From positions 1-27,901 of IMG/VR virus record IMGVR_UViG_3300009308_000106: 27,901 nt of DNA. One strand, given 5' to 3'. The translations under genes and the position numbers were made by a program. The notes below the pieces were generated by a model, which was not told the origin of the DNA, made no database searches, and saw nothing but the letters and a program-made list of their open reading frames with translations. Positions 6,075-25,979 of this stretch are shown in pieces (position 1 is the stretch's first letter; each line of letters starts with the position of its first letter). The stretch is from a virus.

Positions 6075-6104
6075 AAAAAAGCCCACATCAAATGTGAGCT
6101 TTTA
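6075..6104 (-). terminator. Intrinsic terminator overlapping the tail tube stop codon
   Basis: On the minus strand AAAGCTCACAT, a three-base loop, ATGTGGGCTTT and then a further T run form an 11-pair stem (one G-T) followed by uridines. It overlaps the TAA of the tail tube gene and precedes the chaperone ribosome binding site, so it should reduce transcription past the highly expressed tube gene. Confidence 0.8.
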
Positions 6105-6689
6105 CGGTGTATCGAGTGCTACGAGTTCCGGAGTGAATGCCGTGTGCCAAGATGTTTTGACCGCCTCATCAACAACCTCATCTTCAAATGCTTCGTAATA
6201 GAATTTGCCGTTCGCGTCTTTATGCGCGCGGAATTCGAATTCGAGCATAGCGACTTCTTCAATTCCATTTTCAATGACATTCACTTTAAATCCAGTCACG
6301 TTAGAACAGTTCGGGAACGCAATCAACTTACGTGTGTCTTCAAACTCATCTACCGCAGTGGCAGTCAAGATAAAATCTTTCCCTTGAAACTTTCGACCAG
6401 CTGCATATACGCCTGTCTTTAGACCTTCGTTTGTAAGACCCATGATACTCCGAGCAACTGAAACTGGAACGTGGGCTGTTGCCGTGACTGTTAAAAAGTT
6501 TGTCTTAACAATTGTTTTAACGATTTCGGTTCCGCAACGCTTTGTCACTTCCGTTGTGTCGGGTTCTGCACCGATTGTACCCATACAACCAAATGGCGTT
6601 CCTGGGTCGTAACCTGTACCCGATTCACTCTTAAGTTGAATGGACCCTTCTTCTATTGCAGTTGTATCGAATGTTGTTACTGGTGGCAT
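6102..6689 (-). CDS. Major tail tube protein
   Basis: 195 residues, MPPVTTFDTTAIEEGSIQLK at the start, with an excellent GAGGAGG 9 bases upstream. Length, beta-rich composition and place (after HK97 gp10-like and head-completion genes, before the chaperone) fit the phage major tail protein that stacks in rings to form the tube. Motifs such as TKRCGTEIVKTIVKTNFLTV and FEFRAHKDANGKFYYEAFED resemble Firmicutes siphovirus tube proteins. The terminator at its stop codon fits its need for high expression. Ig-like C-terminal decoration domains seen in some relatives are absent. Confidence 0.85.
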   Translation of the reverse strand: MPPVTTFDTTAIEEGSIQLKSESGTGYDPGTPFGCMGTIGAEPDTTEVTKRCGTEIVKTIVKTNFLTVTATAHVPVSVARSIMGLTNEGLKTGVYAAGRKFQGKDFILTATAVDEFEDTRKLIAFPNCSNVTGFKVNVIENGIEEVAMLEFEFRAHKDANGKFYYEAFEDEVVDEAVKTSWHTAFTPELVALDTP

Positions 6690-11574: not shown

Positions 11575-13254
11575 TTAGAAATCTAAACCGCTGAGTATAT
11601 CGAGCGCTTCTGCAGAGTCATATACTTCAATTTCGTCGATTCTGTACAATCCGCGCACAAACGCATCAAATCCATCCGTCTTTCTTCGGATGGGCTCTTT
11701 CTTTTGATATTCTTTGTTACCGTCTTTTTTGATCACGACAAGCACATTGTTTGTGTACCACCTCATGAGTGGGTTATCCCCAAAAATAATCTTCTTGTTC
11801 GCAAATGCCATCTCAATTCTTGGAGCCAACAAACTGTCGATTGCTTTTGGATTTCGTATAGATTCGATTTCAAAGCCCGCTTCTTCAAGTGGTTTTCTCA
11901 TCGCCTCTAAACGGAAATTATCGGCTACTATCTTTTTGATCTCATAATAGTTACGCATCTCTAGGAACCAGTCCAGAATGTATTGCGGGTTGAGTGTTGG
12001 TTCGTCGACCACTGTCAATAGCCCCATCTCTTCCCATTCCTTGATAGGAGCAAATCGTTGCTTCGTGTTCTCGTCGACTTCCCTTGAATATCCATAGTAG
12101 ATGTCGACAAACTCTTTTCTAACGAAAGAATGCGATTTGTGAACGTATTCATCATCAACTTTGAATGTAAGTCCTACAGCTGCAAAGTCACGTATACTTG
12201 CAAAATCCAATGAACCGATACATTCACGGTTTTGAATATCTGGGAATGGTCGATTTGTTGCTACGATTTCTTCCCACTTAGCAACCGAACGTGCAAGATC
12301 CACAACTGGACAGTTCATACGCTTAGTCATGAACTCTTCGCGGTTAGAAGGGTCTTCTTGTAAATCTTCATACTCTTCGTAGATGGTATCGAAAAGACCT
12401 TGAGCGTATTCGCTGCGCGGATGACTTAACATAGGATTTGCCTTTTCCCACAGGTCTGGTTTATCCACTTCACTTTCGTCATCCAGTTTGCAAATGAAAG
12501 GGAAAACAGCGTTCGAACGCGCTTCGCCTTGAAGAACCGCTAAAGCTTTTTCTTTCATCTTGTCCAGGAACCCATCACGAATGTATCCATCTGTACCGAT
12601 GTAAAATTCACGAGGATTGGGTTTCTTACCAAGACCAGAAATATGCACACGAACATCTTTGTTCGTTTCGAAATAGTGTATCTCATCAAACACTACAGCT
12701 CCGTCTCTTAATCCATCTTTCGTGTTACCGTTGGATGTACGAAACTTGAAGATGCTATTGGTGATTTTCCCAAGCACTTGGGTAGCGGTCGCCTTAAAAG
12801 CTTTCTGTAATGTGGCATGTTGTTTGACCACATTTCCAGCTTCTTCAACTGACGTCTTGGCCTGCTCTTCACTATTGGCCACAACTGATATGTTATATTC
12901 CCTTATACCGTGTAGCTCGCTGATCAAGAACGTGCAGATGACAGTAATCAAACCGTTCTTCCCGCCACCTCGACCGAGCATCCATAAAAACTTACGATAG
13001 AATACTCGATTGTTGGACTTGAAAAATAAAAAGACGAATGCAATCAAGAATCGTTGGAATGGCCCGAGAGGAAAGAACCACTTCTCTCCAAACCTGATAC
13101 AATCCTCTATCATTTCGTCATTGAAATATAAATCATCACGGCTCAATATATCACGCTTTAAATACTCGACCAGCAACTTTCGTTCTTCGTTGAACAACAC
13201 TTTGCCTTGCTCGTACAATTCGATGTATTCATCGACGTACTTTTGACTGATCAT
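11575..13254 (-). CDS. terL: Terminase large subunit
   Basis: 559 residues. Walker A GRGGGKNG at residues 94-101, Walker B VVFDEIHYFE with D190/E191, and a C-terminal nuclease beginning near residue 350 with SLDFASIRDFAAVGL (first metal-binding Asp). This is the ATPase motor that packages DNA and cuts the concatemer. It matches the Terminase_1 type usually paired with P27 small subunits. Its ATG overlaps the terS stop (ATGA) and has only a weak AAAAGTGA upstream, so translation is probably coupled to terS. Confidence 0.96.
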   Translation of the reverse strand: MISQKYVDEYIELYEQGKVLFNEERKLLVEYLKRDILSRDDLYFNDEMIEDCIRFGEKWFFPLGPFQRFLIAFVFLFFKSNNRVFYRKFLWMLGRGGGKNGLITVICTFLISELHGIREYNISVVANSEEQAKTSVEEAGNVVKQHATLQKAFKATATQVLGKITNSIFKFRTSNGNTKDGLRDGAVVFDEIHYFETNKDVRVHISGLGKKPNPREFYIGTDGYIRDGFLDKMKEKALAVLQGEARSNAVFPFICKLDDESEVDKPDLWEKANPMLSHPRSEYAQGLFDTIYEEYEDLQEDPSNREEFMTKRMNCPVVDLARSVAKWEEIVATNRPFPDIQNRECIGSLDFASIRDFAAVGLTFKVDDEYVHKSHSFVRKEFVDIYYGYSREVDENTKQRFAPIKEWEEMGLLTVVDEPTLNPQYILDWFLEMRNYYEIKKIVADNFRLEAMRKPLEEAGFEIESIRNPKAIDSLLAPRIEMAFANKKIIFGDNPLMRWYTNNVLVVIKKDGNKEYQKKEPIRRKTDGFDAFVRGLYRIDEIEVYDSAEALDILSGLDF

Positions 13255-13580
13255 GTGAGGTCACTTTTCGAGTAATTTGAGGGCGGTTCCCTTTCGGGTG
13301 CTGGGACATTTAAATTGAGCGCGTCTAAAATCTTAATCATTCGATCATTGGTCTTGTGTAAATCACCGATAGATGGATTCGATTTTGGCCCATGCATACC
13401 AGCGACTTTAATGCCGTTCTCTTGAATATCCTCAATCAAATCGCTCTTCAAATCCCAAAGTGCCATGTAGTCTTGCACAAGATCCGTCAAATAATTTCCT
13501 TTGATTTTGTTATCCTTCATCTGCTTCATCAGGTCTTTTTCGACCCGTTTCCGTAAGCTTGCTCTGCTAATGGTCGCCAT
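13251..13580 (-). CDS. terS: Terminase small subunit, P27 family
   Basis: 109 residues from the ATG at 13580 (MATISRASLRKRVEKDLMKQ); upstream codons of the longer frame carry the GGAAGGTGGTGG binding site. The pattern of a helical N-terminus, LTDLVQDYMALWDLKSDLIED, then NGIKV..GPKSNPSIGDLHKTNDRMIKILDALNL and a Pro/Ser tail is that of P27-type small terminases, which recognise the packaging site. It sits after HNH and before TerL, the standard order for cos phages with an HNH nuclease. Confidence 0.88.
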   Translation of the reverse strand: MATISRASLRKRVEKDLMKQMKDNKIKGNYLTDLVQDYMALWDLKSDLIEDIQENGIKVAGMHGPKSNPSIGDLHKTNDRMIKILDALNLNVPAPEREPPSNYSKSDLT

Positions 13581-13613
13581 CGAACCACCACCTTCCAATT
13601 TACACAAATTCCC

Positions 13614-13731
13614 AATTAACTATATCCGTGTGCGAGGCGCAAAAACTCGACAGTACACTCCCCCTACCGTTACCAGACCCCCCAATTTTTTTGCAAAATA
13701 TTTTGGTGGGGGGTGCTATAGCGGTTCAAAA
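13614..13731 (-). other. Candidate cos/packaging site between HNH and terS genes
   Basis: About 150 bases without a gene and with odd composition. C6 at 13678-13683 and G6 at 13708-13713 form an inverted repeat; a perfect 12-base palindrome CAAAATATTTTG lies at 13694-13705; another C5 tract is at 13660-13664. In phages with an HNH nuclease next to a P27 terminase, the cohesive-end site lies just here. The exact cut positions cannot be read from sequence alone. Confidence 0.5.
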
Positions 13732-14091
13732 TTACCATTTTTCATCATCCCATTTATTTTCTTGCTTCCCTTCAAAGCGATTGTGCCGAACGTTGTGGTG
13801 ATAGGTGCATAAAGTACGTAAGTTGTTTAAATCGATGGCTTGTTCATACGTGCAGTCTTCTAGCTCGATGATATGGTCAACTTCTAGCTTGTTGTCCTTA
13901 ACTTTTCTATTTGCCGCTTCGTCTTCAAACTTCTTTGTGTGCTTCGTCATAACTAAACCCTCAGCTTTGCACCATACGCATTCGTTGTTATCCATCTTTA
14001 CACGCTGATTACGAATGCCGTCCTTACCTCTCCATACATTAGACTTATAGAAACGAAATCTATCCGCCTTAAGCTTGAAGTTATACTGCAT
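13732..14091 (-). CDS. HNH endonuclease
   Basis: 119 residues from the ATG at 14091 (MQYNFKLKADRFRFYKSNVW) with AGGTGG upstream. A CVWC pair (C38, C41), LEVDHIIELEDC (D72, H73), and DLNNLRTLCTYHHNVRH (N89/N90, C95, H98/H99) make a complete HNH nuclease with zinc ligands. Phage HNH proteins beside the terminase genes (HK97 gp74-like) stimulate cos cleavage by terminase. That role here is inferred from position. Confidence 0.9.
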   Translation of the reverse strand: MQYNFKLKADRFRFYKSNVWRGKDGIRNQRVKMDNNECVWCKAEGLVMTKHTKKFEDEAANRKVKDNKLEVDHIIELEDCTYEQAIDLNNLRTLCTYHHNVRHNRFEGKQENKWDDEKW

Positions 14092-14109
14092 GTTAGTAGA
14101 CACCACCTA

Positions 14110-14184
14110 TCAGTCGATAACGTTGACCAAACGAGATGCAGGATCACACTCCATCACGCTTTGACATTTCGTTACTGTATCCAT
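14110..14184 (-). CDS. 24-residue microprotein, unknown
   Basis: Short frame MDTVTKCQSVMECDPASRLV ending at 14110, with AGGTGGTT before the ATG. It fills the gap between a zinc-ribbon gene and the HNH gene with tight spacing, which argues for translation. It contains two cysteines and no family I know. Confidence 0.45.
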   Translation of the reverse strand: MDTVTKCQSVMECDPASRLVNVID

Positions 14185-14194
14185 GTCAACCACC

Positions 14195-14326
14195 TCATTT
14201 AGATTTAACTTCACGTGATGTTGTCGGTCCTTTACAATCCGGACACTTTAAACCGTCTAATGCTTTGTGAGAAGTAACCTTCCACCCACATAAGAAACAT
14301 CTGAACTCTCTTAGCTTTTGCTTCAT
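14195..14326 (-). CDS. Small zinc-ribbon protein (43 aa)
   Basis: Frame starting MKQKLREFRCFLCGWKVTSH with AGGTGG upstream. CFLC at 10-13 and CPDC at 28-31 make a four-cysteine zinc ribbon similar in layout to Com-like phage proteins. It belongs to a run of tiny genes upstream of HNH; spacing to the neighbours is 10-20 bases. Function unknown; nucleic-acid binding is a reasonable inference. Confidence 0.65.
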   Translation of the reverse strand: MKQKLREFRCFLCGWKVTSHKALDGLKCPDCKGPTTSREVKSK

Positions 14327-14346
14327 GATTACCACCTCATTACTTA

Positions 14347-14592
14347 TTAATAAAATGTATAACCCACAATCTCCACTTCAGGATTGTTCTTTAACTTGAA
14401 GTCCTCATCATATGCTTCTTTGATGTATTCAACCTTACTAGGAATATTCATTGTGTTGGTGATCACTTCGATAGAATTCAACGGCGGAACCTTTACGAGT
14501 GTAACTAAAACATCACGACCTTTTATCGGCTTTCCGTTACCTGGACTAAACATATCTTTCATGAACTGTTCCTTTAATCTCAATCTACTCAC
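14347..14592 (-). CDS. Hypothetical protein (81 aa)
   Basis: MSRLRLKEQFMKDMFSPGNG, then a core with strands (GRDVLVTLVKVPPLNSIEVI, NPEVEIVGYTFY). AAGGAG lies 7 bases before the ATG. First protein gene of the late cluster after the tRNA. No recognised family. Confidence 0.7.
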   Translation of the reverse strand: MSRLRLKEQFMKDMFSPGNGKPIKGRDVLVTLVKVPPLNSIEVITNTMNIPSKVEYIKEAYDEDFKLKNNPEVEIVGYTFY

Positions 14593-14612
14593 TCCTTATC
14601 AATTTAAAATGA

Positions 14613-14686
14613 TGCCCCGTGAAGGACTCGAACCCTCAACCTTTGCGGTAGAAACGCCTTGCTCTATCCAGTTGAGCTAACGAGGC
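14613..14686 (-). tRNA. tRNA-Arg(UCU)-like gene with weakened anticodon stem
   Basis: 74 bases on the minus strand fold as a cloverleaf. The acceptor GCCTCGT/ACGGGGC has 7 pairs with one G-T; the D stem GCTC/GAGC has 4; the T stem GAGGG/CCTTC is complete around TTCGAGT; the variable loop has 5 bases. The anticodon loop TTTCTAC gives UCU with U33 and A37. Only three pairs (GCG/CGC) form in the anticodon stem; the outer two positions are A-A and G-A. No CCA is encoded. The 5' end touches the T run of the upstream terminator. Phage tRNAs are common; this one may be functional or decaying. Confidence 0.8.
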
Positions 14687-14715
14687 AAAAGAAAAAGACA
14701 GCCGCTTTGGCTGCC
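14687..14715 (-). terminator. Strong intrinsic terminator directly before the tRNA
   Basis: On the minus strand GGCAGCC AAAGC GGCTGTC forms a 7-pair GC-rich stem (one G-T) followed by TTTTTCTTTT. It closes the early operon or the candidate RNA described at 14687-14909. Because the tRNA begins at the next base, tRNA and late genes downstream need read-through or an internal promoter. Confidence 0.85.
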
Positions 14716-14909
14716 TTAGATGTTAGTGTATACCGCTCCTTGGATTGGCAGTGACACCAGACGGATAAGCTTTATCCGCCTTCAGAGGTTTGTTATTCAT
14801 TCGTATGTGATTGTAGTCAATTAGCGGTTGAGGAATACACTACTATTGCGTCAGTCGCTAATCTATTGATTTATGTATGTAGGCTCCGCTTCTACGAAAC
14901 CCCCACATG
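14687..14909 (-). ncRNA. Candidate structured noncoding RNA or late-operon leader
   Basis: No reading frame with a ribosome binding site is seen in this stretch, but pairings are dense (minus-strand sense). ATGTGGG/CCTACAT (14902-14908 with 14877-14883) gives a 5' hairpin. ATTAGCG/CGCTAAT (14856-14862 with 14820-14826) interleaves with GTAGT/ACTAC (14839-14843 with 14813-14817), a possible pseudoknot. AGTGTAT plus ACCGCT (14835-14841, 14823-14828) pairs with AGCGGTATACACT (14725-14737), enclosing a domain with the hairpin CGGATAA/TTATCCG at 14762-14778. A terminator ends it. I do not recognise a known RNA class. ROOL and GOLLD phage RNAs also sit near tRNAs but are much longer. Confidence 0.5.
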
Positions 14910-14915
14910 CCAATT

Positions 14916-14943
14916 ATCTTATAAAGATAGCTACGCCTGCAAA
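14916..14943 (-). promoter_or_regulatory. Possible sigma-A-like promoter for the structured RNA
   Basis: Minus-strand TTTGCA (4 of 6) and TAAGAT (4 of 6) separated by 16 bases, just behind the stop of the ArpU-like gene. The -10 overlaps the dyad TATCTT-TAT-AAGATA at 14915-14929, a possible activator or repressor site. Start of transcription would be near 14909. Weak match, supported by position. Confidence 0.35.
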
Positions 14944-14949
14944 AAATGG

Positions 14950-15402
14950 TTAAAGTGCGACATTGTGCCCTTTTTGTCCATTGTGTCCTTTCTGCCCCTT
15001 TTGGAAAGTGTCGATGATGTTATCGCGTATTCGCTGCACAGTCTTCCGATTCATGTTAAGATGCTTCGCTATTGCGTTTATACTCATGCCATCTAACATG
15101 CAGTCCAGTATAACCCGGTGCTGTTCATTTTCAACTAAGTGATAGCTGCCTCTAATAAAACCGATATATGCTTCATACTTACGTTTGCGATCATTCTTCA
15201 CTTCACGCCTCATCACTTCCGCTTCAATACGCTTTGATACTCCGTTTGGTGAACGCGGCTCATCAGAGTAACTGGCAACTCCTACAGTCTCCACTGACTG
15301 CATCTGTAAGTTCAATCGATTCACCTCTTTAACCATCCAGTGGTAATCAATTAATATATTTAAAATGTCATTGTATGTGTAGTGTCGCCCCACTCCATTC
15401 AC
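14950..15402 (-). CDS. ArpU / sigma-region-4-like phage late transcription regulator
   Basis: 150 residues. After a helical N-terminus and a basic middle (KRIEAEVMRREVKNDRKRKY) lies the segment EAYIGFIRGSYHLVENEQHR and a C-terminal helix-turn-helix (LDGMSINAIAKHLNMNRKTV, then QRIRDNIIDTF) like sigma region 4. Proteins of this type (ArpU/RinA-like autolysin regulators) sit last in the early operon and activate the late promoter just ahead of the terminase genes; here the structured region and late genes follow. The tail carries a duplicated GQKGHN. AGGGG lies close before the ATG. Confidence 0.7.
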   Translation of the reverse strand: MNGVGRHYTYNDILNILIDYHWMVKEVNRLNLQMQSVETVGVASYSDEPRSPNGVSKRIEAEVMRREVKNDRKRKYEAYIGFIRGSYHLVENEQHRVILDCMLDGMSINAIAKHLNMNRKTVQRIRDNIIDTFQKGQKGHNGQKGHNVAL

Positions 15403-15451
15403 CCCTCAATTGAATTTATGAAACTAAATACTGCTGCAAAAGTTCTGTGCT

Positions 15452-15832
15452 CTAAATAATTTTCCTAACTGGATGTAGAGGCATTCGATTAATCACTTGA
15501 TGATTCAGTTTCTTGACTGATCCATGTGGATGTTGTAATTTCACGCAAGAAAGTGAAGCAAATTGTTGACGTGTCCCTTTATTACTATCTTCTTTTCGTT
15601 TAATCTCGACTATCTCTTCATACATGACACTGAATGCGTCTCTAAATATTTGTGCGACATCCTTCAGTGATTCTCCTATTGCTGCTCCTATTTTCACCCA
15701 TGCTTTTGCAGCTTGAACAAATGGATCGTTGTAATGCTCTTGTTTCACATCTTGAGGTAGTGGAACAATCTGTTCAGGAACTATATGCTCGGGAAAAGGC
15801 AGTTTTTTTAAATCTGGTAAGTAGCTACTCAA
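15452..15832 (-). CDS. Hypothetical phage protein (126 aa)
   Basis: TTG start at 15832 with AAGGAG 9 bases upstream. The N-terminus is Pro-rich (LPFPEHIVPEQIVPLPQD), followed by an amphipathic helix (FVQAAKAWVKIGAAIGESLK, then DVAQIFRDAFSVMYEEIVEI) and a basic tail. No transmembrane segment is certain and no family is recognised. Lies between SSB and the late regulator. Confidence 0.7.
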   Translation of the reverse strand: MSSYLPDLKKLPFPEHIVPEQIVPLPQDVKQEHYNDPFVQAAKAWVKIGAAIGESLKDVAQIFRDAFSVMYEEIVEIKRKEDSNKGTRQQFASLSCVKLQHPHGSVKKLNHQVINRMPLHPVRKII

Positions 15833-15851
15833 TTAACAGCACTCCTTAAAA

Positions 15852-16382
15852 TTAGAATGGTAAATCATCATCAGATACTTCAATTGGTCCATTTCCTGCA
15901 AACGGATCATCATTGATGGTCGTATTGTTCTCTGGTCGATGTTGGCCATCGTCACGACCACGATAATTATTCTGTTGGCTCTGTTGAGGTTTCTGTTGCT
16001 CTTGATTTGAAGCAGCTGCTTCAGGGTGTGCATTTGGCGCACTCCCTTGTGAATTGCGAGGTTCTAAGAACTGAACACTATCTGCAACTACTTCTGTCGT
16101 ATAGACACGCTTACCGTCCTGTCCTTCATAACTGCCAGTCTGTATGCGTCCCTCAACGCCTGCAAGTGAACCTTTCTTTAAGAAGTTTGCACTGTTCTCA
16201 GCAGGTTTTCGCCACACGAGTATGTTGATGAAGTCTGCTTCACGTTCTCCTGATTGATTCGAGAATGTGCGATTGACCGCCAATGTGAAGCGGCACACGG
16301 CCACCCCACTCTGCGTATAACGTAACTCTGGGTCTTTTGTTAATCTTCCTACTAACACCACTCGATTGATCAATGAGTTCAC
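15852..16382 (-). CDS. ssb: Single-stranded DNA-binding protein
   Basis: 176 residues. OB fold at 1-105 with the classic [28 protein letters not shown] and [20 protein letters not shown] motifs, then a Gln/Asn/Gly-rich linker and the acidic tip DDDLPF that recruits replication and repair partners. Full length for Firmicutes SSBs, so probably functional. AAGGAG precedes the ATG by 8 bases. Phage copies coat single strands made during replication and recombination; RusA and the DnaD-like initiator are encoded in the same operon. Confidence 0.97.
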
Positions 16383-16394
16383 TCCTTCTCTTAT

Positions 16395-16592
16395 CTATTT
16401 GGTATCAACAATCGATGCAATACCGATGATGTCATCAATCTCCTCTGCGAGCGCTTGAGTGCGTTCCCCTTCGTCGAAACGTGCCTGCAGCTGCTCCAAG
16501 TTGAAGAGATGAAAATGATTGTTCTTCATGTATAGCTGGCGATAGTATTTCAATCTATCGTCTACTTCTTCCCAATCAATAGTTTTGTCCAT
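16395..16592 (-). CDS. Hypothetical small protein (65 aa)
   Basis: MDKTIDWEEVDDRLKYYRQL, acidic and mostly helical, with GGAGG 6 bases before the ATG. Spaced 12 bases from ssb. No motif recognised. Confidence 0.7.
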   Translation of the reverse strand: MDKTIDWEEVDDRLKYYRQLYMKNNHFHLFNLEQLQARFDEGERTQALAEEIDDIIGIASIVDTK

Positions 16593-16607
16593 GATGTACC
16601 TCCGTTT

Positions 16608-16823
16608 TTATAATTCGATGATTTTACCTCTTGTGATTTTGGCTAATGGTACCTTGAAAGTCATCGACTCGTAACTACTAGCTTTGCTTTGATAGCTCGG
16701 TGACGTGATGACCCTTGCATACTCTAGCTCGATACCTCTGAAGGCCGCAAACTCTGCTAGCGTGCCCTCAAAGATATAGTCGTCTCCCTTGTACCAGGCA
16801 TAGATTTTTAATGGCATAGGCAT
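16608..16823 (-). CDS. Small phage protein of the 'xxYKGDxxxxxGTxxE(L/F)A' type
   Basis: 71 residues. KIYAWYKGDDYIFEGTLAEF, then AAFRGIELEYARVITSPSYQ, shows a layout common in Firmicutes temperate phages: strand, 'GT..E.A' helix, then 'SPSY' and a polar segment. These proteins have no assigned role. AGGTG lies upstream of the first ATG; a second ATG two codons in is also possible. Confidence 0.7.
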   Translation of the reverse strand: MPMPLKIYAWYKGDDYIFEGTLAEFAAFRGIELEYARVITSPSYQSKASSYESMTFKVPLAKITRGKIIEL

Positions 16824-16840
16824 TAGATCACCTCAATCAT

Positions 16841-17113
16841 TTAGCCTTTGATATAAAATAATAGTGGCGCCTCTTTAAATTTGTATGGAAGTCCTGTTTG
16901 CTGCCAAAATTCTTTACTTGTTGAAATGCCTGTGATTATATTCGTCGAGACGCCCAATTTATCGTTATCGAACTCTACCCAAATCGAGGCAACTGTTAGA
17001 AGTGTTCCTATCCCTGTGATAGTTCCAGATACAAACTTGCCATCGACCCTCACTTGAATACGATCACCCTTTTTGAGCGCGGAGACTTCTTCGTAAGTTA
17101 GAAACTTATCCAT
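16841..17113 (-). CDS. Hypothetical protein with SH3-like barrel pattern (90 aa)
   Basis: MDKFLTYEEVSALKKGDRIQ, then VRVDGKFVSGTITGIGTLLT and VASIWVEFDNDKLGVSTNII. The short strand-turn pattern around 'KKGDRIQVRVDGKFVSGTI' suggests a small SH3/Tudor-like barrel, without a family match. ACGGAGG is 7 bases before the ATG. Confidence 0.65.
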   Translation of the reverse strand: MDKFLTYEEVSALKKGDRIQVRVDGKFVSGTITGIGTLLTVASIWVEFDNDKLGVSTNIITGISTSKEFWQQTGLPYKFKEAPLLFYIKG

Positions 17114-17139
17114 GCTTCAACCTCCGTATACTATTTCAA

Positions 17140-17760
17140 TTAAATCAACGAGCCGTCTATTACAAGCACTTGCGAATCTTCACTGTTCAATGTCGCCAAC
17201 ACTTCCATCTGATCAATCTCTTGACCGTCTTCAGACTTAGTTCTTGAGAAACGAATGACGGCATAATCTCGAGAGACCTCTTCGATTTCATCGATCAAAT
17301 CACCTTCATGGTCCTCAGCGACATTATCTGTGTATATTTCAATAGCTTCATCTTCATCCGTCGCCATAATGAGAGCGTAATATGGGTATTGAACCTCATA
17401 AAATTTCATCTTGAAACTCGGTTGTCCATCCCAATGGCCGTTCTCTTCCAGAACAGCAACAACATCTTTTATATAAGGTTCATCGATATTGACGACAACA
17501 TAATTATTGAATGCTGCTTTACCTTCATCTTTTCGTCCATTCTCGATTTGCTCACTGACACTATCCAGTGCAGCTTCGAATTCATTTAGAGTAGTGTCAT
17601 CTACATATCTATTTAGATCCCGTTGGTTGATTATTATATATCGACGTTCGCATCCCTCATTAATAGTGCCCTCAAAAGCAGGCTCGACTTCTTTTTGTCC
17701 TCGAGTTAGGATGTTTACAACTTCTTGATTAATATGTCGTTGGTTTGTATTAAGTTCCAT
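17140..17760 (-). CDS. Acidic hypothetical protein (206 aa)
   Basis: By my count about 47 Asp/Glu against roughly 18 Lys/Arg. The N-terminal half (INQRDLNRYVDDTTLNEFEA) is helical. The C-terminal half has YYALIMATDEDEAIEIYTDN, a pattern seen in short phage proteins of unknown role, and DYAVIRFSRTKSEDGQEID. The charge would suit a protein that mimics DNA, but that is only a thought. GGGAGAG precedes the ATG. Confidence 0.7.
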   Translation of the reverse strand: MELNTNQRHINQEVVNILTRGQKEVEPAFEGTINEGCERRYIIINQRDLNRYVDDTTLNEFEAALDSVSEQIENGRKDEGKAAFNNYVVVNIDEPYIKDVVAVLEENGHWDGQPSFKMKFYEVQYPYYALIMATDEDEAIEIYTDNVAEDHEGDLIDEIEEVSRDYAVIRFSRTKSEDGQEIDQMEVLATLNSEDSQVLVIDGSLI

Positions 17761-17823
17761 TGTGTTCTTCTCTCCCTTCTAATTTTCATTATTGGTTTTA
17801 TCTTCGTACTGAACATCGATTTA

Positions 17824-18225
17824 TTAATTGAGAATATTGCTAATCGGTTCCCTGATAATGCTATCGTCAGCAATCTCAATAGGCGGTTGCGGTGGAAATT
17901 CTTTTTTGACGGCCTTTCCTAATCTTTCGACTTCTTGTTTAAACACATCTAGCTGCACTAATTTAGATAACATCGGACCAATGTTTTTACGGTAGAACTC
18001 TAGCGTGTCCTCTCTTGTAACGGTTGATAGCAATAAAAGAGGATTCATTGGTATCTGTTTTACCTTTGCGCCAGTTGTGAGTTCCGAAATTAACATTCCT
18101 CCATCTTTTCCACCAACCACAAAACGGTGTTCTCCAACTTTGATTTCATGCCCATAAAACGGACGCCATTCATTTTTGTATGCAAGCCAAAACTTTTTAA
18201 ACTGTCCATCTACATAAGTCTCCAT
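17824..18225 (-). CDS. Hypothetical protein (133 aa)
   Basis: Start chosen at METYVDGQFKKFWLAYKNEW (18225) because GGAGG lies 10 bases before it; the longer frame would run through the upstream gene's spacer. The N-terminal half looks beta-rich (VGEHRFVVGGKDGGMLISEL), the C-terminal half helical, with a Pro-rich segment FPPQPPIEI. No family recognised. Confidence 0.65.
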   Translation of the reverse strand: METYVDGQFKKFWLAYKNEWRPFYGHEIKVGEHRFVVGGKDGGMLISELTTGAKVKQIPMNPLLLLSTVTREDTLEFYRKNIGPMLSKLVQLDVFKQEVERLGKAVKKEFPPQPPIEIADDSIIREPISNILN

Positions 18226-18268
18226 CTTCAACATTCCTCCTGCCGTGTAGTTTCTTCGTACTGACTGA

Positions 18269-18625
18269 TTATTTGAATGAATCAACAACCGCTTTAAATA
18301 AAGAATCCTTTGTACGTTGATACTTGGGTAATTCGTCATAACGCATGATACAAGGATGTGTCTTGACTTCTGGGTCTTTAACTTTTCCGTAAACCCATCC
18401 TTCTTCTAGCTTTTGCTTTAACCAATTTTCGTGGGACATTTCGGGCGTAACCTCGTTATTCAAGTGATATTCAACGCCATTCATCGCTGATTCCTTTTGC
18501 CAGTCAGGCGCATCTTCCCATGTCGGTTGACTAAAATCATTTTGACTTTCGCAATATGCTTTATTGACGTTGTGACATACCTTAGCAATGTCGATAATTT
18601 CTACATTTTTCATTTCAAGATTCAT
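18269..18625 (-). CDS. RyR-domain protein (118 aa)
   Basis: Start at MNLEMKNVEIIDIAKVCHNV with AGAGGA upstream. Residues about 35-118 match the RyR domain first described in ryanodine receptors: WEDAPDWQKESAMNGVEYHL, MSHENWLKQKLEEGWVYGKV, KDPEVKTHPCIMRYDELPKY and QRTKDSLFKAVV. The conserved HExW, GWxYG and HPxxxxYxxL elements are visible. RyR domains occur in many phages and prokaryotes; there the ligand is unknown. No other domain is attached here. Confidence 0.85.
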   Translation of the reverse strand: MNLEMKNVEIIDIAKVCHNVNKAYCESQNDFSQPTWEDAPDWQKESAMNGVEYHLNNEVTPEMSHENWLKQKLEEGWVYGKVKDPEVKTHPCIMRYDELPKYQRTKDSLFKAVVDSFK

Positions 18626-18704
18626 TTTGATTTCCTCTTTTCTGTTTTTTATTGAACATTTTGTGTCATTTGCCCGGTAACTAACTTGCCGGTAACTTGC
18701 ACTG

Positions 18705-18845
18705 TTATTGTCTGAGTCTATTTTTCCCTCTACGATAGCCAATTTTATAGGCACCCTTTAATTTGGCAATATCGACTGTAGAAGCAGCAAAAACACCGAC
18801 GATCAAACCTAGCATGACTGCTAATAACATAAATAGATTTATCAT
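18705..18845 (-). CDS. Single-membrane-span microprotein (46 aa)
   Basis: Frame MINLFMLLAVMLGLIVGVFA, then a basic C-terminus (YKIGYRRGKNRLRQ), so one N-terminal transmembrane helix with the tail probably inside. Its ATG overlaps the stop of the upstream gene (ATGA), and GAGGTG lies 7 bases upstream. Function unknown. Confidence 0.7.
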   Translation of the reverse strand: MINLFMLLAVMLGLIVGVFAASTVDIAKLKGAYKIGYRRGKNRLRQ

Positions 18846-19042
18846 GTATAGCACCTCGACTGTTTGACATAATCTTCAAGCTTTGCTGTGATTCTCATTC
18901 CACAACAGCATTCATGGCATACAAACACCTTATTCTCTTTAATCGATGAGTCGAGCATGTGAGGTACGATTATCGGTTCATTGCAAAGCGCATTGCTGCA
19001 GACAATGACTAATTGGCTTAAGTCCTTTCGATACTGGTCCAT
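18842..19042 (-). CDS. Small cysteine-rich protein, probable zinc binding (66 aa)
   Basis: MDQYRKDLSQLVIVCSNALC with a later CHECCCGMRI gives a CxxxxC...CxxC arrangement. The ATG at 19042 with AGGGGTG is preferred over a GTG three codons earlier. It follows rusA closely and overlaps the membrane microprotein. Confidence 0.7.
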   Translation of the reverse strand: MDQYRKDLSQLVIVCSNALCNEPIIVPHMLDSSIKENKVFVCHECCCGMRITAKLEDYVKQSRCYT

Positions 19043-19053
19043 ACCATTCACCC

Positions 19054-19476
19054 CTACCAGATGATTTTAACTACCACTTTCGGTTGTTCTGCATAATACT
19101 TGCGTACCGTGAGCTTCGTGATCTGTGAGTCGTCTTTGTACATGATGCCGTTGAGTGCATCTTTTATCCCTTTGGCGTAGTTGTCGACGTCTGGTCGCCC
19201 AATAGGCAAGATTTCTTGATTGATTGCCGCTTCTCGCTTCGCCTTGGAAAATGACTTCAGTAAAGGTTTGCAGACATCGATATACATCTCGATTGAGCCT
19301 TCTATAAGTTGCTTCGGTTTATGCTGCAATGCAGTGTGAGCAACCAACATCTTGTAATAACGTGAAGCAGGTGGGTCAATCGCTCGTTTCACTTTGTTTT
19401 TGGATGAGAAACGTGGCCTACCTTGTGCGACTGGTTCGCCGATTACCTCGAACAGTATTTCGTTTTTCATAGTCAT
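19054..19476 (-). CDS. rusA: RusA-family Holliday junction resolvase
   Basis: 140 residues. The signature GRPDVDNYAKGIKDALNGIM followed by YKDDSQITKLTVRKYY contains the conserved Asp residues of RusA that bind metal and cut junctions. The N-terminus FEVIGEPVAQGRPRFSSKN also fits. It resolves branched recombination intermediates before packaging. The start (19476) lies inside the upstream overlapping gene with only a distant GGGGAG, so coupling is likely; an ATG two codons downstream is an alternative. Confidence 0.93.
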   Translation of the reverse strand: MTMKNEILFEVIGEPVAQGRPRFSSKNKVKRAIDPPASRYYKMLVAHTALQHKPKQLIEGSIEMYIDVCKPLLKSFSKAKREAAINQEILPIGRPDVDNYAKGIKDALNGIMYKDDSQITKLTVRKYYAEQPKVVVKIIW

Positions 19477-19672
19477 CTCGATTTCTTCGCTCCCCTTGTA
19501 CTGGAATGCCGTTCTTGTTAGCTGGCGGTTTATTCGATTTGGTATTTGTTCTTTCGATATGGACCAGCTGATACCCGAACCGTTCAAGTTCTTTTATCTC
19601 TTGATCATTGAACATGCCAGTTGTAAAGATTCGTTGTCGCTCGACTCGTTTTGCAAATGTATGGATCCGCAT
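19418..19672 (-). CDS. Hypothetical basic protein overlapping rusA (84 aa)
   Basis: MRIHTFAKRVERQRIFTTGM with AAGGTGA 7 bases before the ATG. It ends 59 bases inside rusA in another frame; the last 30 residues are very basic and low in order (ERRNRDDYEKRNTVRGNRRT), probably shaped by the overlap. The good binding site and its role in bridging to rusA make translation likely. No family recognised. Confidence 0.6.
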   Translation of the reverse strand: MRIHTFAKRVERQRIFTTGMFNDQEIKELERFGYQLVHIERTNTKSNKPPANKNGIPVQGERRNRDDYEKRNTVRGNRRTSRTR

Positions 19673-19684
19673 ACTGCTTCACCT

Positions 19685-19939
19685 TCACTCTCGCACTTTG
19701 AATTCAGTTGGATAAGAAAATCTATTTTGATGTGTGTAAGTGGCATCATGAGTGCGTAAAATTTCTTCAAGCTCATGTTTTTGTAAAATCAAATCTTGTG
19801 AGAGCTTTTTATTAGCAGCAAGTTGTTCCTCGGTCCATTTGATATCCTCTTCTACTCCTGCTAATTTATTAATAGTTTTCTGCAACTCATTGTGAATGAG
19901 GGTATTCACCTGTTGATTTAGTGTCTTGTTTTCATTCAT
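19685..19939 (-). CDS. Coiled-coil hypothetical protein (84 aa)
   Basis: MNENKTLNQQVNTLIHNELQ, then KTINKLAGVEEDIKWTEEQL and LILQKHELEEILRTHDATYT give nearly continuous heptads for residues 5-60. GGGAGTG precedes the ATG. Likely a small oligomer; no role known. Confidence 0.7.
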   Translation of the reverse strand: MNENKTLNQQVNTLIHNELQKTINKLAGVEEDIKWTEEQLAANKKLSQDLILQKHELEEILRTHDATYTHQNRFSYPTEFKVRE

Positions 19940-19970
19940 TGCTTTTCACTCCCACTTAAATTTGATATAG

Positions 19971-19991
19971 AGAAAGGGGCGATCAAGCCCC
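19971..19991 (-). terminator. Weak hairpin/terminator after the 237-aa gene
   Basis: Minus-strand GGGGC TTGATC GCCCC followed by TTTCTCT. Short stem and imperfect T run, so probably a partial attenuator within the early operon. Confidence 0.4.
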
Positions 19992-19999
19992 CTCTTGCT

Positions 20000-20713
20000 T
20001 TAGTCGATAACGATAACCTTACCCGCTTCAATCTCTTGTTCTAGTGCTTTTTCAAGATACTCCGCAATGTTTGCCATCGCATTCAGTTCCCAAGCTCCTC
20101 CATCCGCTTCAAACAAGGCCACCCTTACTCCTTCACGAACACGAAGCAGGAAGCTTGATTCAGGTTGAGTCACTTCTGCAAACGTTCGGAACGGTTTTAG
20201 GTGCAATGGATTTGGTAACTCGATGTTCTCGACGGTCGCCACTCCTGCCTTTGCAGTCACACGCTGAGTGAGCCCGTCATCGGATTGCTTTACTGAAGTA
20301 TCCTCTACGAGATTGCTGATAACCTTAATTGCCAATGCTTTGTGATCGTTGTCGACGAAGCAGGCAGTGAGCATAATTTGGAACTGTTCGCGTTCCAAGA
20401 ATGAACCGAACTGAATATTTGGAAGCATCGCTTTAGCAGCTAGATAGTTTCGACGGTCATTATCTTTATTTAGTGCATCATAGACAAATACTCTTGTTGG
20501 AGATTCGACATGCACCATGAATTTTCGTTCTGTATCGAATTGGGACTGGACGTATTCAACGATTCCTGAAAGACTGCGAACGTTCAACGCTTCCACAGAG
20601 CTCTCTTTATCGATGCGAGCGAAGTGATTTTCAGTGACAAATGTTTTCCCTGCAGCTTCAAAACTCTCTGGGCGTTTCAAATCTAGTAAGTAATTGATAA
20701 ATTCTTTTAACAT
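20000..20713 (-). CDS. Conserved-looking phage protein, unknown (237 aa)
   Basis: MLKEFINYLLDLKRPESFEA. Alpha/beta layout with VRSLSGIVEYVQSQFDTERK, YLAAKAMLPNIQFGSFLERE and QPESSFLLRVREGVRVALFE. Its place next to the 131-aa gene and between the initiator and RusA suggests a role in DNA replication or recombination, but I do not recognise a Redbeta, Erf or Sak motif. AGAGGA precedes the ATG. Confidence 0.7.
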   Translation of the reverse strand: MLKEFINYLLDLKRPESFEAAGKTFVTENHFARIDKESSVEALNVRSLSGIVEYVQSQFDTERKFMVHVESPTRVFVYDALNKDNDRRNYLAAKAMLPNIQFGSFLEREQFQIMLTACFVDNDHKALAIKVISNLVEDTSVKQSDDGLTQRVTAKAGVATVENIELPNPLHLKPFRTFAEVTQPESSFLLRVREGVRVALFEADGGAWELNAMANIAEYLEKALEQEIEAGKVIVID

Positions 20714-20766
20714 GTGATTTCCTCTTTTCGTTTTGGTTTAGTTTTTATGTGATGGTCATGTGCTGA

Positions 20767-21162
20767 TTACTTGAATTTGACTACTTTGTTATCCGTAGCA
20801 TTTGTTTCTGCTTCATCCACCGGTTCACCAGTATCTGTCTTGACTGTCCCAGCATCATCAAAGAAAGATTGACCGGGAATGCCACTATGCAGCTCTTTTC
20901 CGATGATTTGTTTCCCTTGGTACCCAAGAAGAATTTGAGTCTCAACTGCTTTAGCAGGTGCTAATGTCGATTTTGCAGTTACGTGTGTAGTCACAACATC
21001 ACGCCCCTCATTCGGTTTCAGCTCGATTGTGATCGTGACCTTACGAGCTTTCTTGTGGTCCGTGTTTGGGTCTGTGATGTTCTCAAATACACGTTGCAGC
21101 TCCTTATTGGCTTTCTCAGCGAGTGCCCCTTGTGCGAATTGGTTAAAATCAATAGTTGTCAT
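20767..21162 (-). CDS. Phage protein of unknown function, partner of the 237-aa gene (131 aa)
   Basis: Start at MTTIDFNQFAQGALAEKANK (21162) with GGGAGA 8-9 bases upstream, preferred to an ATG 10 codons earlier that lies in the upstream gene. The middle holds strands (KARKVTITIELKPNEGRDVV), the C-terminus is acidic then ends VVKFK. No known domain. The two genes share direction and lie 53 bases apart, suggesting a functional pair. Confidence 0.7.
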   Translation of the reverse strand: MTTIDFNQFAQGALAEKANKELQRVFENITDPNTDHKKARKVTITIELKPNEGRDVVTTHVTAKSTLAPAKAVETQILLGYQGKQIIGKELHSGIPGQSFFDDAGTVKTDTGEPVDEAETNATDNKVVKFK

Positions 21163-21328
21163 GTCGTCTATCTCCCATCTTTGTGATTTCATTGGCTAGT
21201 GAGTTCTTTAATCGCTTGGCGTGGCAGTCATGGCATAAATAACTGTTCTTTTTTCGTAACGGCTTGCCTTTGTCCCGGCAGTCCACACAGTGATCAACCA
21301 ATACCGGTCGTATGTGCGCTTTTCGCAT
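21149..21328 (-). CDS. Zinc-finger microprotein (59 aa)
   Basis: Frame MRKAHIRPVLVDHCVDCRDK, then PLRKKNSYLCHDCHAKRLKN. CVDC and CHDCH form a treble-clef-like zinc site. A near-perfect GGAGG lies 7 bases before the ATG. It overlaps the next gene's start by 14 bases. Basic, so nucleic-acid binding is likely. Confidence 0.75.
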   Translation of the reverse strand: MRKAHIRPVLVDHCVDCRDKGKPLRKKNSYLCHDCHAKRLKNSLANEITKMGDRRHDNY

Positions 21329-21331
21329 CTG

Positions 21332-21463
21332 TCATCCTCCGATTCGTTTGACCAGTGAAGCAGTTATACCTCTTCCTTGCAGCCACTGGATGATGAGTGC
21401 CGGTCTCTTGTGTGCCGACTTGATGACTTGGCTGGATGTGAGTAGATCGATTTTGTTAGGCAT
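21332..21463 (-). CDS. DUF4224-like small protein (43 aa)
   Basis: Frame MPNKIDLLTSSQVIKSAHKR, then PALIIQWLQGRGITASLVKR. The layout 'LT..ev.......R...Q..WL...GI' recalls the short DUF4224 phage proteins, though the match is by eye only. AAAGGAG precedes the ATG; it overlaps the end of the initiator gene by 8 bases. Confidence 0.6.
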   Translation of the reverse strand: MPNKIDLLTSSQVIKSAHKRPALIIQWLQGRGITASLVKRIGG

Positions 21464-22430
21464 GTTTGAACTCCTTTGTAGCAGCAAGCTCTGCAATTAG
21501 CTTCTGGCGTTCCGCATCTAGATCTGCTTCTTCCTCAGCGCTCAACTTAGTTGTTTTGGCTTCTTGATTTCCAAGCCATTCCGGTACAGGTTCAGATTTT
21601 TTAATTTTTGAAGCTGCTATAAACCTTTTGTTAGCAGACACTACATCATCAATTGTTCTGTAGTTCTTTTCTTTCCAAATTCTCAAGATACCCTCGATGT
21701 AGTTGATTTTGGATGCCTCGCCTTTTTCAATGGCAACCTGTATAGCGTAGAAGGTAAGTTCAGCTCCGTATTCATCGACCATGTAACCAAGCCTTTGACC
21801 GATGTGCGGATTTAGATCACGCACATTTTCTTTGTAGAATGTTGCAACGTCTCCAAAACTATAAATCTTGGTTGTTTCATTTGGTTCTTCAATTTTTTCA
21901 TCAGCCCTGATAGAGTACGGACTCACTGACGAATCGTTTGCTTCTTCTGTTTGTTCTTCGTTCTGGTTATTGTTTTGGTTATTATTATTATTCTTGTTAT
22001 TATGTTTATTATTATTGCGGTTCGGTATCGATACAGTATCGATAGGGTATCCATAATTAATGCAAAGTCCGACTAAGGTATCACGAAAATCTTCATTTTT
22101 GATGGACTTGATTTCCCTATCGATCACCTTGGCGACCTTTGGTGATGTGGCTTTGTTATACTTCAACCAGTTGACCAACATGAGTTCTGAAGTGGTTTGG
22201 TCATAAAGTATCTTTCCGTATTCCACGAAGCGCTTCAGGAGCTTATTGACTTGTTCTCTGTCCCACCCCAGTTCAAACGCTGCAAGTTTCACATTGATTT
22301 GATAGACTCCGCATTGCGTTGTCTTGCTGTTTGTCAGCAAATAAATGAAGAAGTATCTGTCCTCTGCTGATAGATCCGTGACAAAGTCGTCCTGCCAAAA
22401 ATCAATCTGTATCTGTCTGTAAATTGCCAT
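21456..22430 (-). CDS. DnaD-domain replication initiation protein
   Basis: 324 residues from the ATG at 22430 (MAIYRQIQIDFWQDDFVTDL), with GGAGG 8 bases upstream; the track-length start would be 5 codons longer. Residues 1-105 form a winged-helix DNA-binding domain. Residues 138-158 are an Asn-rich linker (runs of AAT/AAC). Residues about 193-260 are a DnaD-type C-terminal domain (YGAELTFYAIQVAIEKGEAS, INYIEGILRIWKEKNYRTID) with the YxxxIL/W motif. Such proteins start phage replication and load helicase. No separate helicase loader or helicase gene is seen in the window, so host DnaC/DnaI-type helicase machinery is probably used. Confidence 0.88.
   Translation of the reverse strand: MAIYRQIQIDFWQDDFVTDLSAEDRYFFIYLLTNSKTTQCGVYQINVKLAAFELGWDREQVNKLLKRFVEYGKILYDQTTSELMLVNWLKYNKATSPKVAKVIDREIKSIKNEDFRDTLVGLCINYGYPIDTVSIPNRNNNKHNNKNNNNNQNNNQNEEQTEEANDSSVSPYSIRADEKIEEPNETTKIYSFGDVATFYKENVRDLNPHIGQRLGYMVDEYGAELTFYAIQVAIEKGEASKINYIEGILRIWKEKNYRTIDDVVSANKRFIAASKIKKSEPVPEWLGNQEAKTTKLSAEEEADLDAERQKLIAELAATKEFKHA
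21965..22044 (-). other. Candidate replication origin inside the initiator gene
   Basis: Two copies of the palindromic TATCGATA at 22026-22033 and 22037-22044, 11 bases (one helix turn) apart, border about 55 bases made almost only of A/T-rich triplets (21965-22019). A third TATCGAT is at 22118-22124. Iterons beside an AT-rich tract within the linker-coding part of a rep gene are where several phage and plasmid initiators bind. The AT-rich tract also encodes the Asn linker, so it could be only coding. Confidence 0.35.
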
Positions 22431-22449
22431 TATATATTCCTCCATTATT

Positions 22450-22479
22450 TTGATTAGGAGACACCTCTCGTGGTATACT
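22450..22479 (+). promoter_or_regulatory. Plus-strand promoter candidate with dyad
   Basis: TTGATT and TATACT with an 18-base spacer, facing away from the initiator gene. An 8-base perfect inverted repeat, GACACCTC (22460-22467) and GAGGTGTC (22481-22488), brackets the -10, so a regulator could bind here. On the other strand the same dyad forms a hairpin in the leader of the initiator mRNA. Confidence 0.5.
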
Positions 22480-22485
22480 TGAGGT

Positions 22486-22539
22486 GTCCTAAAATTAAAT
22501 TGTTTGTTTCTGAACTCCCTGCCTAAAGGGAGTTTTTTT
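22486..22539 (+). ncRNA. Candidate antisense small RNA (about 54 nt)
   Basis: Starts about 7 bases after TATACT and ends in a plus-strand terminator. It is complementary to the leader of the minus-strand mRNA between the 74-aa gene and the initiator gene, and to the last codon or so of the former. Plasmid initiator genes are often controlled by such antisense RNAs; that parallel is inference. Confidence 0.4.
22513..22539 (+). terminator. Plus-strand intrinsic terminator
   Basis: AACTCCCT, a 6-base loop, AGGGAGTT and T7: a perfect 8-pair stem followed by a T run. On the minus strand no T run follows the stem, so it is oriented against the surrounding genes, which supports a short plus-strand transcript. 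Confidence 0.75.
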
Positions 22540-22762
22540 ATTTGATGCGGAACAGGTTCTTACTAAAACTCGCATTTACCTCACATGTCTTTTCATTCAC
22601 TAGTTCTGGATAGTCCCTATTTAAAATCAGTACCCGACCTCCGTTAAACTCCACGACAGCTGCTACCGGTATTTCATTTCCAAAGTCTCCAGTGACTACT
22701 TTTAAAACCTCATGACGTTTCCCTCGAAACATAAACACGTATTTTGGTACAGTTCCTATCAA
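22538..22762 (-). CDS. Hypothetical protein (74 aa)
   Basis: MIGTVPKYVFMFRGKRHEVL, then VVTGDFGNEIPVAAVVEFNG and GRVLILNRDYPELVNEK: a small beta-rich protein. It starts 4 bases inside the upstream gene's end (overlap), suggesting coupling. No family known. Confidence 0.65.
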   Translation of the reverse strand: MIGTVPKYVFMFRGKRHEVLKVVTGDFGNEIPVAAVVEFNGGRVLILNRDYPELVNEKTCEVNASFSKNLFRIK

Positions 22763-23061
22763 TTCTTTTCAGCCCCTAACTCATAGATTGTAAATAGAGT
22801 GATATGATTGGCCGTCTGCATGCTCACACGCTTCACCAGTGGACCATCTGCTTCATTGTCCGACTGGAAGACGTTCTTCATGCTGACTTCTGTGAGACCT
22901 TCGAACACATTATTGGATACATGGATGTGCCACATGACCCCTTCATCTTCTTTAGTCGTCATATATAATTCTTTGACACCAATTAAAGGTGTTAAGTGCA
23001 AAGAACGACTGAGTAACGATTCCAATACCTTTAACGATTCTCTTTGCAACATGCGACTCAT
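22759..23061 (-). CDS. Hypothetical protein (100 aa)
   Basis: MSRMLQRESLKVLESLLSRS from the ATG at 23061, which overlaps the stop of the membrane microprotein (ATGA); a second ATG three codons on has better spacing from AGGGG. Beta strands follow (GVKELYMTTKEDEGVMWHIH). Unknown function. Confidence 0.65.
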   Translation of the reverse strand: MSRMLQRESLKVLESLLSRSLHLTPLIGVKELYMTTKEDEGVMWHIHVSNNVFEGLTEVSMKNVFQSDNEADGPLVKRVSMQTANHITLFTIYELGAEKN

Positions 23062-23213
23062 ACCCCTGTCACCAGCCTTGATAACATTACGATCATGACG
23101 ATGAACATCATCAACGCCATAGGGATGTAAAACCATAGCTCGTCATTTCGTGAGATTGATTCCGAGTCCTCTGCGATAAAGTAATGGTTGATTTTCGTGC
23201 GGAGCTGCTTCAT
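23058..23213 (-). CDS. Membrane microprotein (51 aa)
   Basis: Frame MKQLRTKINHYFIAEDSESI, then WFYIPMALMMFIVMIVMLSR: a polar N-terminus and one transmembrane helix at 28-46. The ATG overlaps the antirepressor stop and its own stop overlaps the next ATG, so three genes are chained by ATGA overlaps. Role unknown. Confidence 0.65.
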   Translation of the reverse strand: MKQLRTKINHYFIAEDSESISRNDELWFYIPMALMMFIVMIVMLSRLVTGV

Positions 23214-23977
23214 GCTTGGTTCTCCTTCTGTTGCAAGAACTTGTTGATGAAATAGACTTGTCCTTTACCTGTCACCTTTGTGGTTTTGGTGACTCGTGAA
23301 GAACCATCAGGATTACTGACAACACGTTTTTTGATGTCCATGATTCCAAGGTCCATGCTGTATTGAGTAGGGAGGTTAAACAATTCCCCTTGTTTCTTGA
23401 TTAGGTATCCGTTGTTGCGCAGCCAATCAAACAAACGATTCTGCCCTACATCAATTCCGTTTTGTTTAAGTAGCTTCGCTAGCTCTCCTACTAAAATAGA
23501 AGATTGAGAGGATTCGACTGCATCAGCGAACAGCACTTTAGGTTGTTGTTTCTGGATGACCACTTCTGCGGCCATACGCTTAGCGCGTTCTTCTTTTAAA
23601 GTAGTTGCAAGCTGAATGATTGTATCTGGATCTGATAAAGCTTTTTCGATAGTTTCAGGAGTCATATATGCTCCATGTTTACGAATAGAGGGCATAACTT
23701 CATGAGTGACCCAGCGTTTAAACTCTCTAGCTTCCTCTTTACGAGATTTCAAAATTACAGAGTATAAACCGGGTTCGTTTATAATTATTGCCCCACGTTT
23801 AAAACCGACTAATTGTAGGTTTTGTTTTTCGTCTTCATCTAAGTGCCTCGTCATAGCTTCTGCATCAGTGAAATTTAAAACCTTAGCAACATCTGCAGCA
23901 ATAAACCAATTTTCGTTATCCTTTTTCATCACTCGAATATCGTTAGACTCAAAGTTGAAGATTTGTAATTCACTCAT
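23210..23977 (-). CDS. Phage antirepressor (Bro-N plus KilAC)
   Basis: 255 residues. Residues 1-105 form a Bro-N domain (NWFIAADVAKVLNFTDAEAM, GLYSVILKSRKEEAREFKRW, VTHEVMPSIRKHGAYMT). Residues about 140-250 form an antirepressor KilAC domain (SSILVGELAKLLKQNGIDVG, LFDWLRNNGYLIKKQGELFN, KGQVYFINKFLQQ). Such proteins counter the lysogenic repressor or act as early DNA-binding regulators. Start overlaps the upstream stop (TAATG), with GGGAGG 10-12 bases upstream. Confidence 0.92.
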   Translation of the reverse strand: MSELQIFNFESNDIRVMKKDNENWFIAADVAKVLNFTDAEAMTRHLDEDEKQNLQLVGFKRGAIIINEPGLYSVILKSRKEEAREFKRWVTHEVMPSIRKHGAYMTPETIEKALSDPDTIIQLATTLKEERAKRMAAEVVIQKQQPKVLFADAVESSQSSILVGELAKLLKQNGIDVGQNRLFDWLRNNGYLIKKQGELFNLPTQYSMDLGIMDIKKRVVSNPDGSSRVTKTTKVTGKGQVYFINKFLQQKENQA

Positions 23978-24225: not shown

Positions 24226-24293
24226 ATTCTTCAACTCCTTAAAGGGGTTTTCCCTCCAATGTCGAATTGTGGTATCGAAGGGAGGTGATATAT

Positions 24294-24608: not shown

Positions 24609-24612
24609 TATC

Positions 24613-24638
24613 AAAGGCAGGCATTAGTCTGCCTTTTT
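24613..24638 (+). terminator. Terminator of the lone plus-strand gene
   Basis: AAAGGCAG, an 8-base loop, CTGCCTTT then more T: perfect stem of 8 pairs with a T run, 4 bases after the stop codon. It overlaps the end of the convergent 159-aa gene, whose transcripts would meet only the weaker opposite side. Confidence 0.85.
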
Positions 24639-25405: not shown

Positions 25406-25410
25406 AGTTA

Positions 25411-25680: not shown

Positions 25681-25682
25681 GA

Positions 25683-25919: not shown

Positions 25920-25943
25920 AGTATCAACTCCTTTCATAATTTC

Positions 25944-25972: not shown

Positions 25973-25979
25973 CATATAA

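Follow-up and report, generated by a model that had tools for sequence, protein, structure and literature searches.

We examined a window of 27,901 nucleotides (nt), comprising the whole of a stretch of viral DNA (positions 1 to 27,901 of IMG/VR record IMGVR_UViG_3300009308_000106), and within it a gene-free block at positions 14687-14909, whose described features all lie on the minus strand. Read along that strand, an activator gene is followed by a promoter box, a stretch free of open reading frames (ORFs), an intrinsic terminator, a tRNA-Arg gene, p81, an HNH endonuclease gene, TerS and TerL (Table 1). A preliminary description, drawn from the DNA letters alone, had noted about 220 bases without a credible reading frame; we likewise found no credible ORF in the block, where the longest minus-strand ORF encodes 25 amino acids (aa). 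Given the family of the activator, the direct repeats at the end of its gene and a TAAGAT box at Ltr-like spacing, the block most likely represents the untranslated 5′ leader of a phage late operon of the Ltr, RinA or Alt kind, equipped with a built-in terminator and transcribed from a start near 14909.

Table 1 Features of the gene-free block and its surroundings. Positions are those of the window; HTH, helix-turn-helix; MFE, minimum free energy.
Feature	Position	Strand	Basis or predicted stability
Gene for a late transcription activator of the ArpU/Ltr type, 150 aa with a C-terminal HTH, final gene of the early cluster	14950-15402	minus	PHROG/Pfam matches
Four 9-bp direct repeats, GGGCAGAAA GGACACAAT GGACAAAAA GGGCACAAT, proposed Ltr binding sites	14962-14997	minus	Located at the 3′ end of the activator gene
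Predicted late promoter: TTTGCA 14943-14938, 16-nt spacer, -10 box TAAGAT 14921-14916	14916-14943	minus	Sequence
5′-terminal hairpin of the leader	14876-14907	minus	-14.5 kcal/mol, z -3.9
Local stem 1: TTAGCG 14861-14856 with CGCTAA 14826-14821, 6 bp, up to 8	within 14813-14861	minus	Forced fold, -48.4 kcal/mol
Possible second pseudoknot stem: GTAGT 14843-14839 with ACTAC 14817-14813		minus	5-bp stem alone at chance level
Distal helix, 13 pairs: AGTGTAT 14841-14835 and ACCGCT 14828-14823 with 14737-14725	14725-14841	minus	MFE -51.0 kcal/mol, pair probability ~0.95
Intrinsic terminator: stem 14717-14695, 9 bp, U-rich tract 14696-14687	14687-14717	minus	-13.7 kcal/mol, z -3.9
tRNA-Arg, anticodon TCT	14611-14687	minus	ARAGORN; Rfam tRNA 52.7 bits
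First late genes: p81 14347-14592 (phrog_3915), HNH endonuclease 13732-14106, TerS 13251-13607	13251-14592	minus	
TerL, after TerS	11575-13254	minus	

The protein encoded upstream of the block matched phrog_1058 (E 2.6e-20), phrog_36, annotated 'transcriptional regulator' (1.8e-12), and Pfam HTH_23. The gene at the corresponding place in Staphylococcus phage phi13, phi13_25, matched phrog_1058 at 2.5e-59, and phi13 Ltr aligned with profile A1, for which the window protein and its relatives (16 sequences in all) had been aligned, with a probability of 98.6% (E 1.1e-15). The equation of phi13_25 with the Ltr of a 2026 study (PMC13123087) is our own identification from sequence, adopted because the gene immediately precedes the interval to which the promoter was mapped and matches phi55 ORF034, as that study states for Ltr. 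By its family matches, the window protein appears to be a late activator of the Ltr/ArpU type. When IMG/VR and GTDB contigs were searched with this protein alone, no close relative emerged.

The 3′ end of the activator gene carries the array of direct repeats, which we located, like the terminators described below, using custom scripts. Its score was reached in 0 of 500 shuffles, and period 9 alone stood out. The array would occupy approximately -88 to -53 relative to the expected transcription start, and the TAAGAT hexamer begins 39 nt past it, as in characterised Ltr promoters. The late promoter of phi13 requires a TATA box together with four direct repeats located where ltr ends (PMC13123087), and the same study places the four repeats bound by Alt of phage TP901-1 at -76 to -32. 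Comparable arrays were present in 52 of the 80 nonredundant activator loci that form our comparative set, the window included. Furthermore, the relatives contain a -10-like hexamer at a similar distance after the repeats, which in locus L160 is an identical TAAGAT. The -10 box of the window is also spanned by an inverted repeat, TATCTTTATAAGATA, at 14929-14915.

Between this promoter region and the late genes lies the sole strong minus-strand terminator found from 14600 to 26100. The preliminary description had placed a strong terminator here, abutting the tRNA and the late genes, and both points held: the stem reaches z -3.9, and the tRNA-Arg starts 8 nt past it. The tRNA and late genes are therefore reachable solely by read-through. 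As in late control of the Q type, an intrinsic terminator is thus promoter-proximal and upstream of all late genes, and this arrangement is recurrent. With a strict finder applied to the 450 nt or less downstream of the activator stop codon, a terminator was detected in 35 of the 80 loci; shuffled sequences gave 0.4 on average, and the opposite strand gave 10. In every locus that had both an array and a terminator (24 of 24, the window and 23 others), the terminator was downstream of the array, and a -10-like hexamer lay between the two in 23 of the 24, although the pattern is loose and some of these hexamers will occur by chance. An intrinsic terminator separates the activator gene from the first late gene in phi11 (RinA), phi13 (Ltr), TP901-1 (Alt), phiSP15-1, BE21, StB12 and CBP1 as well; none was found in this interval of phiETA. 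A terminator directly before a tRNA was also observed in L109 (tRNA-Asn), L192 (tRNA-Phe) and L095 (tRNA-Lys).

These positions bear on whether the block might merely be where the early operon ends, in a 3′ untranslated region and its terminator, with the true late promoter located further downstream, an explanation that draws on the weak consensus match of the -35 and -10 elements. We consider it very unlikely, as a promoter would not fit into the gap that separates the terminator from the tRNA, the window and 23 other loci all have the repeats ahead of the terminator, and the mapped late start of phi13 falls between ltr and the next gene, in the same interval as the phi13 terminator.

The assignment of the block to the leader of a late operon under an ArpU-like protein, with a terminator to be read through, had been offered as one possibility in the preliminary description. 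It gained support from the comparative evidence, namely the activator family (phrog_1058, shared with phi13 Ltr), the repeats, the -10 box, the order of parts and the recurrence of that order in relatives and in three model phages. Several observations weigh against it. The proposed promoter, TTTGCA-16-TAAGAT, is present but fits just 8 of 12 consensus positions, the promoter scanner does not list the pair, and chance alone often produces a loosely defined -10-like hexamer. With identity up to 41%, the activator has only distant relatives. The block itself is without a homolog in the searched sets, and hence its fold is without covariation support. Finally, leaders in general are only mildly structured, with a mean z of -1.0 for 30 leaders with terminators versus -0.18 for activator-gene 3′ ends (p 0.009); the leader of the window is among the more structured ones.

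Comparison with known systems clarified which parts of the locus are familiar. The Ltr promoter P23 of phi13 (LtrC family) resembles the window in having direct repeats at the activator 3′ end followed by a TATA box, and a terminator ahead of the late genes, which in phi13 are MazG/HNH/ter; it differs in its short leader, its 18-bp repeats and the absence of a tRNA and of a long structured domain. The reporter used for phi13 extends 50 bp past the start (PMC13123087). The Lactococcus phage TP901-1 shares with the window a gene-free gap of ~580 nt between the activator gene and terS, a tRNA in the leader and a terminator before terS, whereas its tRNA precedes the terminator, its leader sequence is unrelated, and Alt shows no detectable homology to the window activator (hhalign probability 0.1%). 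Within the alt-terS gap of TP901-1 (L272), a tRNA-Lys and another tRNA-like element, at 1635-1709 and 1789-1876, precede the terminator; the second element was called as tRNA-Ala CGC and gave a weak tRNA-Sec match. The RinA late promoter of phi11 likewise presents an activator gene, repeats, a -10-like box, a terminator and terS in this order, but RinA belongs to another activator family and no tRNA is present. This reading explains the gene-free block as the region of late control in a phage of the Ltr type. Most likely, the layout of the locus is of the known Ltr-type kind and the RNA fold itself is without a known relative, such that the earlier statement that the element matches no known class holds for the fold and fails for the locus.

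Subsequently, we considered the leader RNA, for which all statements on folding are thermodynamic predictions. The block folded more stably than its shuffles (z -3.3 to -3.9), and its z was -2.7 without the terminator and -2.6 without both the 5′ hairpin and the terminator; these two elements account for much, but not all, of the folding signal. The region of the long-range helix alone gave z -3.0, and this distal helix encloses a hairpin at 14781-14759. The structural elements named in the preliminary description were recovered. The 5′ hairpin and the 13-pair helix were both strongly predicted, and the stems of the interleaved pseudoknot exist, although the second of them is no better than chance when taken alone. 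The two folds that share the CGCT segment proved to be mutually exclusive and, with a gap of 2.6 kcal/mol in favor of the distal fold, both plausible by energy. When growing fragments were folded, the local stem was preferred until ~14736 had been transcribed, and the distal helix had taken over by 14724.

A switch predicted just ahead of terminator transcription, between exclusive folds of similar energy, would be expected of an attenuator or riboswitch in which the choice between the local pseudoknot and the distal helix sets whether the terminator forms, and the preliminary description had raised such control of read-through by fold choice. The predictions did not bear this out, because neither fold touches the terminator: its stem has a probability of ~1 beside either fold, and forbidding the stem yielded no competing antiterminator. 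Moreover, no alternative fold that sequesters a terminator arm, as in an attenuator, riboswitch or T-box, was present among the predicted folds, and Rfam returned no riboswitch match. We therefore rejected the fold-choice attenuator as extremely unlikely.

The search for relatives of the block RNA was negative at every level. Rfam 15, a search that the preliminary description had suggested, matched the tRNA only, both at the gathering score and at E up to 10. In phages and plasmids, blastn gave no homolog of the block, an exact 22-mer from the block had no match in IMG/VR, and the block was absent from 158 TerL-related loci (L001-L158). A single-sequence covariance model of the block (R1) matched none of 92 loci. 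The best match of R1 in 399 Bacilli genomes (E 3.8e-4 for one genome) was discarded as chance because it falls within a coding frame of 301 aa that is unrelated and resembles comFC. Since no homolog was present in phages, plasmids, the 92 loci or the 399 genomes, the predicted fold appears to be an orphan in the searched sets.

This lack of conservation also concerns the idea that the late promoter mainly yields a free-standing phage small RNA of ~215 nt, a terminated product acting in trans or a by-product, like the 6S RNA of lambda. A promoter, a structured body and a strong terminator do define a discrete transcript, and the pR′-6S-tR′ unit of lambda has such a form. However, the RNA is conserved in no searched set, unlike the order of the surrounding parts, and related phages hold unrelated leaders of different lengths in the same slot, making a small RNA unlikely.

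In the mechanism that we favor, that of a late-operon leader, binding of Ltr to the repeats would activate the promoter late, and transcription would start near 14909. The first ~190 nt would comprise the 5′-terminal hairpin and the domain closed by the long-range helix, followed by the strong terminator. Most simply, the terminator would halt early transcripts coming through the activator gene, thus insulating the late genes; a stop placed after the promoter fits this role because, with the binding sites reaching into the activator gene, no terminator would fit ahead of the promoter. Late complexes would then pass the terminator to transcribe the tRNA-Arg and the late genes, and leaky termination is the simplest account of this passage.

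In lambda, the Q gene is followed by the promoter pR′, a ~200-nt untranslated leader RNA (6S RNA), the terminator tR′ and the late genes. The window resembles the lambda Q system in this order of parts, while antitermination in the window is only hypothetical; unlike lambda, the window has no Q homolog and carries repeats upstream of the promoter. Within the late operon of the window, we observed two further strong minus-strand intrinsic terminators, one (8438-8414) where the predicted major capsid gene ends and the other (6103-6077) following the gene at 6102-6689. An operon with internal terminators is well suited to point to an antiterminator system (PMC8955417), and Gram-positive mobile elements pair terminators with antiterminator RNAs, as in canT of Tn916 (PMC11658703) and conAn of pLS20 (PMC8955417).

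It is consequently conceivable, though doubtful, that the leader RNA acts in cis as a processive antiterminator of the HK022 put, EAR, conAn2 or Tn916 canT type, or that Ltr is a Q-like antiterminator, and that one of them permits passage of this and later terminators. The terminator between the promoter and all late genes, the two additional terminators and the precedent of Gram-positive mobile elements argue for it, and canT, conAn, EAR and put share with the window an insulating terminator near the start of a large mobile-element operon and a candidate cis RNA. For the window leader, no Rfam match to an antiterminator RNA was obtained, although we did not check whether Rfam includes canT, conAn2 and put, nor compare the leader with them directly. 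In addition, an RNA fold common to the leaders of the relatives was sought and not found, and a leaky terminator would suffice.

A slightly more speculative generalization is that Gram-positive phage late operons under Ltr, RinA or Alt commonly have, after the activated promoter and ahead of the first late gene, an intrinsic terminator that is passed by processive antitermination, with either the activator being Q-like or the leader being put/canT-like; the window leader would then be an undescribed RNA of this sort that also gates a phage tRNA. The recurrent puzzle is that, across three activator families and in model phages such as phi11, phi13 and TP901-1, the late promoter region is separated from the late genes by a terminator. 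If its passage is regulated, the 'activators' or the leaders would control elongation besides initiation, and late control in Gram-positive phages would be nearer to lambda Q than described in the literature that we found.

Other leaders and an intergenic segment of the window showed features of their own. Between HNH and terS, positions 13660-13720 of the window contain C-rich and G-rich runs, ACCCCCCAATTTTTTTGC...GGTGGGGGGTGC, which may represent a cos site or a hairpin. In 35 of the 80 loci (for example, L178, L200, L204, L218, L230 and L261), the leader begins with a motif like TAAAATGGRAGGCAGGACGG, followed by hairpins with differing stem sequences; the motif is not in the window and has no Rfam family, and the start with its hairpins is possibly an undescribed leader element. 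A separate conserved leader is represented by L206, L211, L215 and L222, whose Ltr-slot leaders have TTGTCCGAAATGACGTTAAACTA in common. The Ltr slot of another related phage (L238, 3486-3548) is occupied by the DUF3800-VIII RNA of Rfam (RF03075), and small hairpins with a CGGAAA loop are located near the expected late start in L188, L189, L192, L195, L199, L201 and L280.
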